DNA of 64,000 nucleotides from Cytophagales bacterium (GTDB lineage Bacteria; Bacteroidota; Bacteroidia; Cytophagales; Bernardetiaceae), in the NCBI GenBank assembly GCA_013299045.1, contig JAAFJX010000019.1, forward strand, positions 1-64,000, written 5' to 3'. Position 1 is the stretch's first letter. Each line of letters begins with the position of its first letter. Below the pieces are notes generated by a model. It made no database searches, was not told the DNA's origin, and saw nothing but the letters and a program-made list of their open reading frames with translations. A program made the translations under genes and the position numbers. This document shows, one piece after another, positions 4,842 to 32,939 of the stretch.

Positions 4842-5984
4842 CTAATCTTCGCTTTGGGTAATTCTAAAACCTGCCTTCAGCGGAAAATGGTCGGAGTAGT
4901 CTATACTTCTATCAAGCTCAAAATCTACGCATTGAATTGAAGGACTATAAAAAATGTTGTCTATCCGTAAAAAGAAGAGCAAAAAGCTATTAAAACTAAA
5001 GCCGAAACCATTTCCCTGCATTTCAAAGGCATTTTCTAAATGGTTCTTGAGTGTGATGTAAGAAAAACTATAAGGCAAATCGTTGAGGTCTCCGCTCAGA
5101 ATAACGTGCCGGTGTGGGGACTCTAAAATATGTTGCTCAATGGCTCTAATCTGCTCGGTTCGGCGCACGGCACCGTCTTCAAAGCGTTCTAAAACAGCCC
5201 AAAAGGCTTTTTCTAAAATGCTTTGGTTCTTGAGTGCTTCCTGGTCTATGTGCATAGACTGCAAGTGCAAGTTATAAACACGGACTGTGTCCTGGCCCCA
5301 AAGCGCATCAATAAAAATTGCACCATTGGCCGTCTTTTTATCAAATTTAACCTCGCCGCGTTGTACAATGGGGTGCTTGCTGAAAATAGCCATACCGAAC
5401 TCTGCCTTGATGTTATCGCGCGATATAATTTTAAAATGATGCTGGTAGTTTCTTTGTTTGCCTATTTTTTCTAAAGTGTTATAAACCGAGTAGTCAGGTG
5501 CATTATAAAATTCTTGTAAACATTTAAAATCTGAGTCGTCAGCACTAATCCAATCAATCATTTTAATTGAACTACTCTTATCCTCTTTTTCATAATTTTC
5601 ATAGGCGTTGAAAATATGCGTGTTATAGTTCAGCACCTTCAACTGAGGCGCTTCCTGCGGCCAGAGGCTTAAAGCATAAGTATAAAACAAGAACTTATAA
5701 CCAACCAAAAGACAAATCAACGAGTAAAGCGTTAGCTGAAAGCGCTTGCGCCATATCCAGAACAAGGCAAAAAATAACAGCAAGATTTGCCAAGCAGGAA
5801 TACTAAGGGCCAGCAGGCTTACCCAACTCACAATGGTAGGCGGCACGAAAGCCGTGCAGTACGCCAAAAGTGCCGCGATACACACAAAACGGTTGATAAA
5901 AAGCACAAAACGCACACGAGCGCGTCTGTGGTACACCTTTTTTTTGTCTTTTTGGGTAAGTTTTGCTATTTTTTTTCTTTCCAT
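4842..5984 (-). CDS. Membrane-anchored endonuclease/exonuclease/phosphatase (EEP) family protein
   Basis: About 380 residues. The N-terminus is strongly basic, followed by two or three hydrophobic segments (residues ~20-100), then an EEP (DNase I/Mg-dependent phosphodiesterase) domain. Family motifs are visible in order: LKVLNYNTHIFN at the domain start, the metal-binding Glu in LQEFYN, the HLQSM histidine, the LSGDLNDLPYS metal/catalytic loop, and the C-terminal SDHFPL. All catalytic positions appear intact. Proteins of this layout are common in Bacteroidota, and their substrate (nucleic acid, phospholipid or phosphorylated sugar) is not established. The start is uncertain: a GTG at 6017 in the same frame would add 11 residues; the ATG at 5984 is chosen because it leads directly into the basic cytoplasmic segment. 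Confidence 0.85.
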   Translation of the reverse strand: MERKKIAKLTQKDKKKVYHRRARVRFVLFINRFVCIAALLAYCTAFVPPTIVSWVSLLALSIPAWQILLLFFALFWIWRKRFQLTLYSLICLLVGYKFLFYTYALSLWPQEAPQLKVLNYNTHIFNAYENYEKEDKSSSIKMIDWISADDSDFKCLQEFYNAPDYSVYNTLEKIGKQRNYQHHFKIISRDNIKAEFGMAIFSKHPIVQRGEVKFDKKTANGAIFIDALWGQDTVRVYNLHLQSMHIDQEALKNQSILEKAFWAVLERFEDGAVRRTEQIRAIEQHILESPHRHVILSGDLNDLPYSFSYITLKNHLENAFEMQGNGFGFSFNSFLLFFLRIDNIFYSPSIQCVDFELDRSIDYSDHFPLKAGFRITQSED

Positions 5985-6041
5985 TTTTGCTAAGGTATGT
6001 AGCCTCAGCCTACTCACCCCCCACTAAAAAAGTTTGTAATT

Positions 6042-6554
6042 TTATGGTTTTGTCATGGTGTGGCCACACTTTTTGCAAGTACAAAGGTCTTCCGAATCAT
6101 AAAATTTACGCATAAGAGGCGGAAATTGCTTGACAATGTCGGTCAGTACGAAATAATCCTCAAAGAGCTTGTTGTTGCATTTTTCACAAAACCACAAAAA
6201 GCCGTCTAGTTCGCCCTCACGCCTATAGCGCTCAATAACAAGCCCAACAGTATTGGGGCCGCGCTGAGGCGAATGAGGCACTTTGGGCGGCAACAAAAAT
6301 ATTTCGCCTTCTTTAACTGGCACTTCCACCGCCTCACCTTTTTCGTCAATAAGTTTTAGAACAATGTCTCCTTCTATTTGATAAAAAAATTCTTCGCCTT
6401 CGTTGTAATGATAATCCTTGCGGGCATTGGGGCCTCCTACAACCATCACGATATAGTCTTTATTGCCGATATAAACTTGCTGATTGCCTACAGGTGGCTT
6501 GAGCAGATGACGGTTCTCATCTATCCACTGTTTTAAGTTAAACGGTGCTAGCAT
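6042..6554 (-). CDS. nbaC: 3-hydroxyanthranilate 3,4-dioxygenase
   Basis: 170 residues, the usual length of the bacterial enzyme that opens the ring of 3-hydroxyanthranilate to 2-amino-3-carboxymuconate semialdehyde in the kynurenine pathway. The cupin Fe(II) ligands are recognisable as His49 and Glu55 (DYHYNEGEEFFYQ) and His94 (KVPHSP). The C-terminal rubredoxin-like site found in bacterial homologues is present as Cys123/Cys126 (CEKC) and Cys160/Cys163 (CKKC). No other kynurenine-pathway gene is adjacent; a RidA-family protein resembling 2-aminomuconate deaminase lies at 18809-19228 and could act later in the same pathway. Soluble cytoplasmic enzyme. The assignment is firm from the metal sites and overall match. 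Confidence 0.93.
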   Translation of the reverse strand: MLAPFNLKQWIDENRHLLKPPVGNQQVYIGNKDYIVMVVGGPNARKDYHYNEGEEFFYQIEGDIVLKLIDEKGEAVEVPVKEGEIFLLPPKVPHSPQRGPNTVGLVIERYRREGELDGFLWFCEKCNNKLFEDYFVLTDIVKQFPPLMRKFYDSEDLCTCKKCGHTMTKP

Positions 6555-31450: not shown

Positions 31451-31840
31451 ATGTCCTTGTTTGACCGCCTCAAAAACATAATAAGAGCCAATGTGAACGA
31501 CTACAACTACTCGGACGAGGAGTTGGATAGCATTGACAAAGAATATGATAAGTATATCAAAAATCAGCAGGGAGCAGAAAAAAAGACCTATGCCAATGGG
31601 TTTAATGATGTGCCACAAACTAATCCCAAAGAAATTGAAGAAAGAAGGCATTATGCTGCATTAGGCCTGATGTATGGGGCTGATTTTGAAAAAATTAAAG
31701 CGGCTTATAAAGGATTAATGAAGCAGTACCATCCTGATAAGTTTCATACCCAGCCCGATAAGCTGAAACACGCGCAGGAACAAACCCAGCGTATTAATGC
31801 TGCTTACTCTTATTTTAAGGCAAAATATAACAAGGCTTAA
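31451..31840 (+). CDS. J-domain protein with Vipp1/IM30-like N-terminal helix
   Basis: 129 residues. The C-terminal ~65 residues form a J domain: HYAALGLMYGADFEKIKAAY helix II, the HPD motif at residues 94-96 (KQYHPDKF), and the helix with QRINAAYSYFKAKY. The HPD is intact, so it should stimulate an Hsp70. The first 17 residues, MSLFDRLKNIIRANVND, strongly resemble the membrane-binding amphipathic helix 0 of Vipp1/IM30 (MGLFDR..RV.RANLND as I recall it). An acidic linker (20-62) joins the two. No Gly/Phe or zinc-finger part, so it is not classic DnaJ. A PspA/IM30-family gene starts 145 bp downstream. Function is inferred: a membrane-recruited co-chaperone, perhaps acting on PspA assemblies. 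Confidence 0.85.
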   Translation: MSLFDRLKNIIRANVNDYNYSDEELDSIDKEYDKYIKNQQGAEKKTYANGFNDVPQTNPKEIEERRHYAALGLMYGADFEKIKAAYKGLMKQYHPDKFHTQPDKLKHAQEQTQRINAAYSYFKAKYNKA

Positions 31841-31985
31841 AGACATTTAAGGTTCAGTTGAAACAAAAATGAGGATGCTGATATCCTTTGAGGTATTCAG
31901 AAAGAACAGAGTTTTGCTGAAATATACCCAAAGTGCGGATAGAGTGTTTAAAATTTTTCAAAGGTTATTTAGACGACTATATAGA

Positions 31986-32774
31986 ATGTTGAGTTTTTTA
32001 AAAAAATTATTCAAAATAGGTGAAGCCGAAGCCCAAAATTATTTGGACAAGAAGGAAGACCCCATGAAAATGTCTGAACAGGCGGTGCGCGACCTCAAAA
32101 GGGAGCTAGCAGAAAGTTTGAGGGCTTTGGCTGAAATTAAAACCATTACGATAAACGCCAAGCGAGAAGCCGATATGAACAGGCGTGGGGCAGCAGAATA
32201 TGAACAGAAAGCTATCTTGCTTCTACAAAAAGCCAGTGTGGGCGAAATAACAGAGGCAGAAGCAGACCGTTTGGCAGAGCAAGCACTTGCCCAAAAGAGC
32301 AGACTAGATGCACAAGCCCAACAGAGCGAAACGAACTTACAGAACTACGAGGGGCTTGTTAATAAGTTGGACGACAACGTGCAAATGCTCAAATCCCAGA
32401 TTACAAGTATAGAGCAAGAAGTTCGCTCGTTGCGGGCACGTTCTAAGGTAAGCGAAGCCACTAAGCGCCTACACGAGCAAATGTCTCATCTGAACGAAGG
32501 TGGTGCCTTACAACATATTGAAAAAATGCGGCAGCGCGTTGAGAACCTCGAGATTCAGAACGAAACGAATCAAATGCACTTACATACCAGCACAGATGCC
32601 AGCAGCTCCTCACTAGATGCTGAAATAAATGCTTTGCTTGGAATTTCGGGGTCTGAAAAACCTGCTGGCCTGCCGCCCTCTAGCGCTCTACAGCAGCTCA
32701 AACGCGAAATCAAAAGCCGTGAAAGCCATTTACCACCCAACGAAAGTGATGGTTTTAATCCTATTTTGCCTTAA
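31986..32774 (+). CDS. pspA: PspA/IM30-family membrane-stress protein
   Basis: 262 residues from the ATG at 31986 (MLSFLKKLFKIGEAEAQNYL); the frame opens 39 codons earlier but the N-terminus here is the family's helix 0 and is preferred. Then KKEDPMKMSEQAVRDLKREL, the conserved turn and start of the first long helix, and an extended coiled coil to ~residue 205. A C-terminal ~55-residue Ser/Pro-rich tail ends the protein. PspA/IM30 proteins are ESCRT-III-like, oligomerise on the inner face of the cytoplasmic membrane and protect it. No pspF/pspBC genes nearby. The upstream neighbour is a J-domain protein with a similar kind of amphipathic start. Confidence 0.9.
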   Translation: MLSFLKKLFKIGEAEAQNYLDKKEDPMKMSEQAVRDLKRELAESLRALAEIKTITINAKREADMNRRGAAEYEQKAILLLQKASVGEITEAEADRLAEQALAQKSRLDAQAQQSETNLQNYEGLVNKLDDNVQMLKSQITSIEQEVRSLRARSKVSEATKRLHEQMSHLNEGGALQHIEKMRQRVENLEIQNETNQMHLHTSTDASSSSLDAEINALLGISGSEKPAGLPPSSALQQLKREIKSRESHLPPNESDGFNPILP

Positions 32775-32816: not shown

Positions 32817-32939
32817 ATGTCTGCACCAGCACGTACCCGCCGTGGCATTACTTGGAAGCCCGAATTAAAGCCTGATGAGCCTAAAACAAGCCCTGACAAA
32901 GATAAAAAAACACCAGAAAAAAACTCTCCTAAAAAATAA
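32817..32939 (+). CDS. Small basic hypothetical protein (40 aa)
   Basis: ATG at 32817, stop at 32937-32939. Translation begins MSAPARTRRGITWKPELKPD and continues as a Lys/Pro/Asp-rich tail ending SPKK. The amino-acid composition (Pro, Lys, Asp, Arg) is unusual for chance A+T-rich DNA, and it sits neatly between the PspA-family and phosphatase genes (42 bp from each). It may be a small disordered protein. No homologue is known to me. Confidence 0.45.
   Translation: MSAPARTRRGITWKPELKPDEPKTSPDKDKKTPEKNSPKK

Follow-up and report, generated by a model that had tools for sequence, protein, structure and literature searches.

Among described systems, the closest to the one considered here is that of the Chlamydomonas chloroplast, in which a dedicated J-protein, CDJ2, and its partner HSP70B serve a protein of the PspA/Vipp1 family (PMC10602608, PMC13051332; cited papers are drawn on here and below through their available extracts). 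In vitro, the HSP70B/CDJ2/CGE1 system both assembles VIPP1 and takes it apart (PMC10602608). The subject of the present analysis is a bacterial gene pair, encoding a J-domain protein and PspA, in a 64,000-nucleotide stretch of Cytophagales DNA (contig JAAFJX010000019.1, positions 1 to 64,000 of the forward strand, referred to below as the window). A preliminary description of this DNA had named CDJ2–HSP70B–VIPP1 as the known parallel, and this holds good. The two systems nevertheless differ. CDJ2, compared here by description only, is a plastid protein, whereas the J-protein of the window type carries a Vipp1-like α0 helix and is encoded beside PspA, often together with a CesT/Tir-like chaperone.

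Binding of Hsp70 to a bacterial PspA-family protein is already known. In Synechocystis, pull-down recovered DnaK2 and DnaK3 together with Vipp1, and DnaK2 was also found by co-precipitation (PMC4297356). The available main text of that paper lacks the word 'DnaJ' and uses 'J-domain' a single time, among its references, and the extracts mention no J-protein that serves Vipp1. The CesT/Tir–PspA dyads of Ravi et al. 2024 (PMC11237479) resemble the operons described below in that a CesT/Tir-like gene adjoins that for PspA, and their authors propose a chaperone-like role for CesT/Tir in assembling membrane-linked complexes. The operons differ from the dyads in their J-protein, which would add an Hsp70 route. 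Neither 'DnaJ' nor 'J domain' occurs in the available main text of this survey of PspA partners, or in that of PMC9239133. No report pairing a bacterial J-protein gene with pspA was found among the titles and abstract openings listed by searches of the open-access literature, which excludes subscription journals and most preprints. What seems to be new is that PspA operons include a J-protein bearing a PspA-like helix.

DjlA is a J-protein with an N-terminal membrane segment and with transmembrane and TerB-like parts. The window J-protein shares its C-terminal J-domain, and the DjlA model NF006948 is its best NCBIfam match by E-value (3e-11). The match is however confined to residues 23–125 and, at 43.4 bits, falls short of the cut-off of 162, which places the protein outside the family, and the transmembrane and TerB-like parts are absent from it. 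AtcJ, involved in cold adaptation in Shewanella (PMC6715715), is likewise a short J-protein devoted to one task, but it has a 21-residue C-terminal extension and another role, and the available text of that paper mentions no α0-like helix.

A J-protein with a Vipp1-like N-terminal helix

The J-protein gene (31451..31840, + strand) encodes 129 amino acids which, on the evidence of the open reading frame (ORF), Pfam, alignments and an AlphaFold model, form an N-terminal amphipathic α0-like helix, a variable linker and a C-terminal J-domain. The helix, MSLFDRLKNIIRANVND, is specified by the codons for residues 1–17 (31451..31501, + strand) and is of the Vipp1/PspA type by phmmer and profile scoring. 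When residues 1–21 were searched against 177,635 distinct sequences of the PDB, with matches accepted up to E 10, all eight matches were to Vipp1 or PspA chains. Six of these align residue 1 with residue 1 and two are shifted by one; 11 of 17 residues are the same as in the chain named sll0617, MGLFDRLGRVVRANLND. Taken singly, the matches are weak, with a best whole-sequence E-value of 0.059, and the eight chains are close relatives of one another. The N-terminus of a second Cytophagales J-protein (L006) gave four matches, all to Vipp1 chains, while that of L020 gave a single match, to an unrelated chain, and a hand-made conservative variant of the window peptide gave none in the PDB. Among seven J N-termini compared with Pfam, PF04012 was matched by one only (E 0.17), and three others matched unrelated families at similar E-values.

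The N-termini were also scored with a profile. This α0 profile was built solely from 71 PspA α0 segments, equivalent to about nine effective sequences, and its background comprised the N-termini of 930 mechanical ORFs of 200 amino acids or more from the loci. For J-proteins and background alike, the start scored was the best-scoring methionine within the first 60 residues, or residue 1. The window J-protein scores 21.5, a value reached by none of the 930 background N-termini, whose 99.9% quantile is 8.3. Of 132 distinct J-domain ORFs, a set which includes J-proteins from outside the family, 63% rank within the highest 1% of background scores. The resemblance to Vipp1 noted in the preliminary description is thus borne out by the profile score and by the eight PDB matches together, though single matches are weak. 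Nor is it a generic amphipathic pattern, since the window N-terminus outscores 2000 of 2000 substitutions which keep residue classes. Among 22 J-proteins chosen after profile scoring to span the groups, such substitutions reach the observed score in fewer than 5% of trials for 18, and the likeness therefore exceeds an amphipathic pattern for most of the members tested. The hydrophobic moment of the window helix, 0.55, lies in the top 4.9% of background ORFs. The sequences do not discriminate between common ancestry and convergence towards one lipid chemistry.

The J-domain occupies residues 67–124 (31649..31822, + strand) and matches PF00226 at 41.4 bits, above the cut-off of 27.8. Its His-Pro-Asp motif (HPD, residues 94–96) had been described as intact; H94, P95 and D96 prove to be invariant in 22 of 22 aligned relatives in one set and 26 of 26 in another, the two sets overlapping. 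HPD-bearing J-domains stimulate Hsp70, for which the window genome contains a single full-length gene besides two short, weak matches. The protein belongs to class C (type III): PF00226 is the only family over its cut-off, the chain ends five residues past this match, and there is no zinc finger, DnaJ C-terminal domain or G/F region. PF04012, the PspA/IM30 family, is absent from the matches of the whole protein at E ≤ 1, which places the protein outside that family; its PspA likeness is confined to the N-terminal helix. AlphaFold places helices at residues 3–13 and 22–40 in addition to the J-domain, with fair confidence for the J-domain only and a mean predicted local distance difference test score (pLDDT) of 65.7; the model was not used as evidence for membrane binding.

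The neighbouring PspA and the pairing in Cytophagales

The gene which follows the J-protein gene encodes a 262-residue PspA/IM30 protein (31986..32774, + strand), from which it is separated by 145 nucleotides (31841..31985, + strand). The mechanical frame runs from 31869 to 32774, and the start matching relatives is the ATG at 31986, giving a protein that begins MLSFLKKLF. PF04012 scores 107.4 bits (cut-off 33.9) over profile positions 3–200, including the α0 region, confirming the earlier assignment, and the best PDB matches are Vipp1 chains. Promoter- and terminator-like matches around the pair occur at chance level only.

The preliminary description had envisaged that the membrane-targeting helix was moved from PspA onto the J-protein. 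This was rejected, as the neighbouring PspA retains an α0 of its own, MLSFLKKLFKIGEAEAQNYLDKKEDP, with a hydrophobic moment of 0.43 compared with 0.55 for the J helix. By eye, 19 of 20 J-linked PspA N-termini have a helix-like segment of the usual length, that of L016 (genome G046) being shortened. Other phyla combine the J helix with a standard PspA α0, such as one with a MAGIFKRLFRVAQSEAH-like start. At the other end of the protein, the C-termini of J- and CesT-linked PspA are often of SLxxLKxKM type by eye (in the window, the last 40 residues, about 32655–32774), and several J-linked PspA have a second LxxLKxxLK copy at the extreme C-terminus. This segment is a possible docking tail, judging from its sequence. 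Directly 3′ of the window pspA lies a small lysine/proline-rich ORF beginning MSAPARTRRGITWKPELKPDEPKTSPDK (32819–32939, + strand).

Conservation of the pair was examined in 59 Cytophagales genomes, including the window's own. Twenty-five have a J match at E ≤ 3.4e-10; the matches listed for the remaining genomes are weaker, at best 4.6e-7, and mostly to the J-domain part. PF04012 was searched in all 25 J-positive genomes, the window's (G000) and 24 others. PspA lies directly downstream of the J-protein, on the same strand, in 15 of them (G000–G003, G005–G010, G012, G031, G042, G046 and G056); the pair, whose conservation the preliminary description had proposed to examine, is thus conserved within the order. 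In G012, G031 and G046 (loci L006, L012 and L016) the end of the J gene and the beginning of the PspA gene share 4 nucleotides, which suggests coupled synthesis. Named-record loci with the pair are L063–L068, L074 and L097, some of which represent the same genomes again. No PspA was found in the analysed stretch around the J gene in L069, L071, L072, L075, L078, L107, L118 and L141, and the stretch of L076 ends too soon past the J gene to show one.

A third arrangement of the pair was observed in L070, a Cytophagales metagenome-assembled genome in which the J gene (5889–6284, + strand) stands head to head with a gene for a Vipp1-like PspA (start 5822, − strand), their starts lying 67 nucleotides from each other. 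Longer J-proteins with a MITKML.EIFQA-like start occur in L018, L020, L069, L071, L107 and L141, again with no PspA in the analysed stretch; several come from Microscillaceae- or Microscilla-titled records.

A J–CesT/Tir–PspA operon in other groups

Two features of the system are missing from the preliminary description: an operon of J-protein, CesT/Tir and PspA genes, and a second PspA beside a CesT/Tir gene. Loci beyond Cytophagales were taken from a named-genome scan, which gave the best 80 of at least 346 confirmed J matches, and from whole-genome samples. These yielded loci in which a gene of about 130 amino acids lies between those for the J-protein and PspA. The middle genes of L148 and L122, as well as a gene in L001, match CesT_Tir_1 of Pfam (E 4e-45 to 2e-56); other CesT/Tir genes were called by a custom profile, and groups are named from record titles. 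In the group of the Chlorobiales-titled G289, which belongs to the window's phylum, 10 of 61 genomes have the J-protein at E ≤ 1.4e-31 and all ten have the order J–CesT–PspA. The phylum of G348, from a record titled Nitrospina, has it in 23 of 60 genomes at E ≤ 2.7e-25, with CesT next in 23 of 23 and PspA in 22, the lone miss (L224) ending at a contig edge; in a further seven genomes of this phylum the J matches are weaker and lack CesT or PspA neighbours. The full operon is present in 14 of the 16 J-positive genomes (E ≤ 1e-18) among 60 from the phylum of G347 (Latescibacteria), and the two misses (L243, L249) again end at contig edges. Finally, in the phylum of G349 (Oligoflexales) the J-protein was found at E ≤ 1e-18 in three of 58 genomes, two with the operon; in L254 the J gene has neither a CesT nor a PspA neighbour. 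Since only three of these 58 genomes carry the J-protein, the module is patchy. The gap between the J and CesT genes is 4–40 nucleotides in 51 of 66 loci, some genomes being represented twice and starts being those of the longest ORFs.

Gemmatimonadetes- and Zetaproteobacteria-titled records were rejected as extra phyla, because G351 and G350 fall in the samples of G347 and G349. Family f36, to which most of the 61 genomes of the G289 sample belong, yielded matches to the J-domain part only, mostly in frames of ordinary DnaJ length; when 296 genomes of the window's phylum were sampled, most of the matches listed covered that part only, too. Two kinds of protein were rejected as family members, namely the Clostridia type, in which the J-domain is N-terminal, and the Desulfobulbaceae type. 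The latter, seen in L077, L080, L083 and similar loci, is a distinct J-protein that starts with GCGGC and hydrophobic segments and has its J-domain at the C-terminus. A second J-like subfamily is found in Bacteroidota (L153–L155, L158–L162, L164–L166 and L169; for example, L160:1492-1941). Its members have a similar first helix, often with an MGQ.FDR start and an acidic segment of the DELRRIIDEL type before the J-domain, and no PspA was found within about 1.5 kb of them. The operon of L122, L132 and L133 has upstream of it a gene whose product is about 1073 amino acids long and downstream one whose product, of about 550 amino acids, has a start resembling a twin-arginine translocation (Tat) signal.

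The window genome encodes a second PspA, in L001, beside a CesT/Tir gene (PF22550, E 1.5e-49). A CesT/Tir–PspA dyad is thus present at L001, as in the J operons of other groups, and absent from the window locus (L002, L003). A PspA tree of 63 rows, in which 46 J–CesT-linked rows were thinned at random to 16, unites J-linked and CesT-linked PspA in one group, split with support 100/100 from nine Vipp1-like 'unlinked' PspA. Eight of the nine come from genomes with the J-protein elsewhere, and the ninth is the head-to-head PspA of L070, labelled unlinked because only same-strand neighbours were counted. Within Cytophagales, 20 of 21 J-linked PspA fall in one clade with weak support (85/83) and many long branches, which make fine placement unsure. 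The window genome has both the J-linked and the CesT-linked kind.

A candidate Hsp70 route to PspA

Gene structure, the similarity of the helix, a conserved J-domain and conserved gene order are established. On this ground, and by analogy with the plastid system, the J-protein may be a membrane-docking class C co-chaperone dedicated to PspA, recruiting DnaK to PspA polymers at membranes; this is the likeliest of the readings considered and is held with middling confidence. The PspA α0 binds membranes (PMC12358876). The α0-like helix would put the J-protein on the same stressed membrane patches as PspA, or into the same coats. The J-domain would then stimulate DnaK at these sites, as expected from its intact HPD motif and established J-protein biochemistry, and DnaK, like HSP70B with CDJ2 and VIPP1, would load onto PspA and spend ATP to assemble or take apart polymers, a part played for eukaryotic ESCRT-III by Vps4. 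The CesT/Tir-like chaperone encoded between the two in other phyla would be a third partner, while in Cytophagales a duplicated PspA would have stayed with the J-protein and the other with the CesT/Tir gene. PspA is, we infer, the client of the J-protein and DnaK. The Hsp70 route to PspA suggested in the preliminary description is carried forward as a hypothesis, according to which Hsp70 may assist in forming or dismantling the coats that PspA makes on damaged membranes.

Several observations weigh against such a dedicated role. PspA itself hydrolyses ATP slowly, and faster with membranes (PMC12358876), and so another energy source for PspA exists. In 10 of the 25 J-positive Cytophagales genomes the J-protein is not beside PspA (G004, G013, G017, G023, G027, G033, G039, G048 and G054, plus G026), and it therefore need not serve PspA alone; G026 is without any PF04012 match, its J gene lying 135 bases from a contig end. 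Co-transcription is not assured, because the window gap is 145 nucleotides and those of other direct pairs in Cytophagales reach 347. The helix similarity is weak in L132 (p 0.68), L079 (p 0.15), L149 (p 0.14) and L016 (p 0.11), the N-termini of L214, L122 and L160, the last from the unlinked subfamily, have no match in the PDB, and the window helix is modelled at low confidence (pLDDT about 50).

These points bear on the alternatives to different degrees. PspA could be a platform rather than a client, the J-protein bringing DnaK to PspA-marked damaged membrane for the sake of misfolded or mis-inserted membrane proteins. The same gene-order evidence fits this explanation, the ten genomes without an adjacent PspA favour it, and the helix would co-localise the two proteins without any remodelling of PspA. 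It is nonetheless rather unlikely, as the J-protein is repeatedly coupled to PspA itself, in four phylum-level groups, and Cytophagales have kept a duplicated PspA next to it, both of which implicate PspA more directly. In plastids, moreover, the J-protein known to serve a PspA homologue works on its polymer (PMC10602608). The helix might, alternatively, be a mimic which packs into or caps PspA polymers instead of anchoring in the membrane, making the J-protein a polymer adaptor for DnaK. Similarity beyond the residue-class pattern in 18 of 22 members (p < 0.05), in register with the Vipp1 N-terminus, would suit such a mimic, and α0 also touches the rod wall in Vipp1 rods (PMC12358876). Common lipid chemistry may however account alone for the shared sequence, and the suggestion appears improbable.

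The J-protein might instead be a general stress chaperone of the ordinary kind, co-expressed with PspA only because both are required under envelope stress. Operons often gather genes by regulation, and the wide intergenic gaps would fit this account. The PspA-type helix would then be left unexplained, and the 4-nucleotide overlaps speak for coupled synthesis, making this account very improbable. That adjacency and helix resemblance both arose by chance is scarcely credible: the weakness of the single-sequence match (E 0.059) would allow it, but the gene order recurs in four phylum-level groups and the α0 profile score exceeds every background N-terminus.

Returning to the proposal of a PspA-dedicated co-chaperone, its broader form can be offered tentatively. 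The operons may encode a previously unreported bacterial ESCRT-III remodelling module, spread over four phylum-level groups, in which an α0-bearing J-protein brings DnaK onto PspA coats, Hsp70 rather than an AAA ATPase powers polymer dynamics, and the CesT/Tir-like chaperone holds PspA before or after assembly. Liu et al. 2021 state that it is not clear if a Vps4-equivalent ATPase assists Vipp1 (PMC8281802). PspA and Vipp1 are bacterial ESCRT-III proteins without a known Vps4, and a conserved operon whose Hsp70 co-chaperone bears a PspA-like helix is a concrete, testable candidate for such an ATPase route. If this is true, chloroplast HSP70B–CDJ2–VIPP1 and cyanobacterial DnaK–Vipp1 would be instances of a wider bacterial theme.
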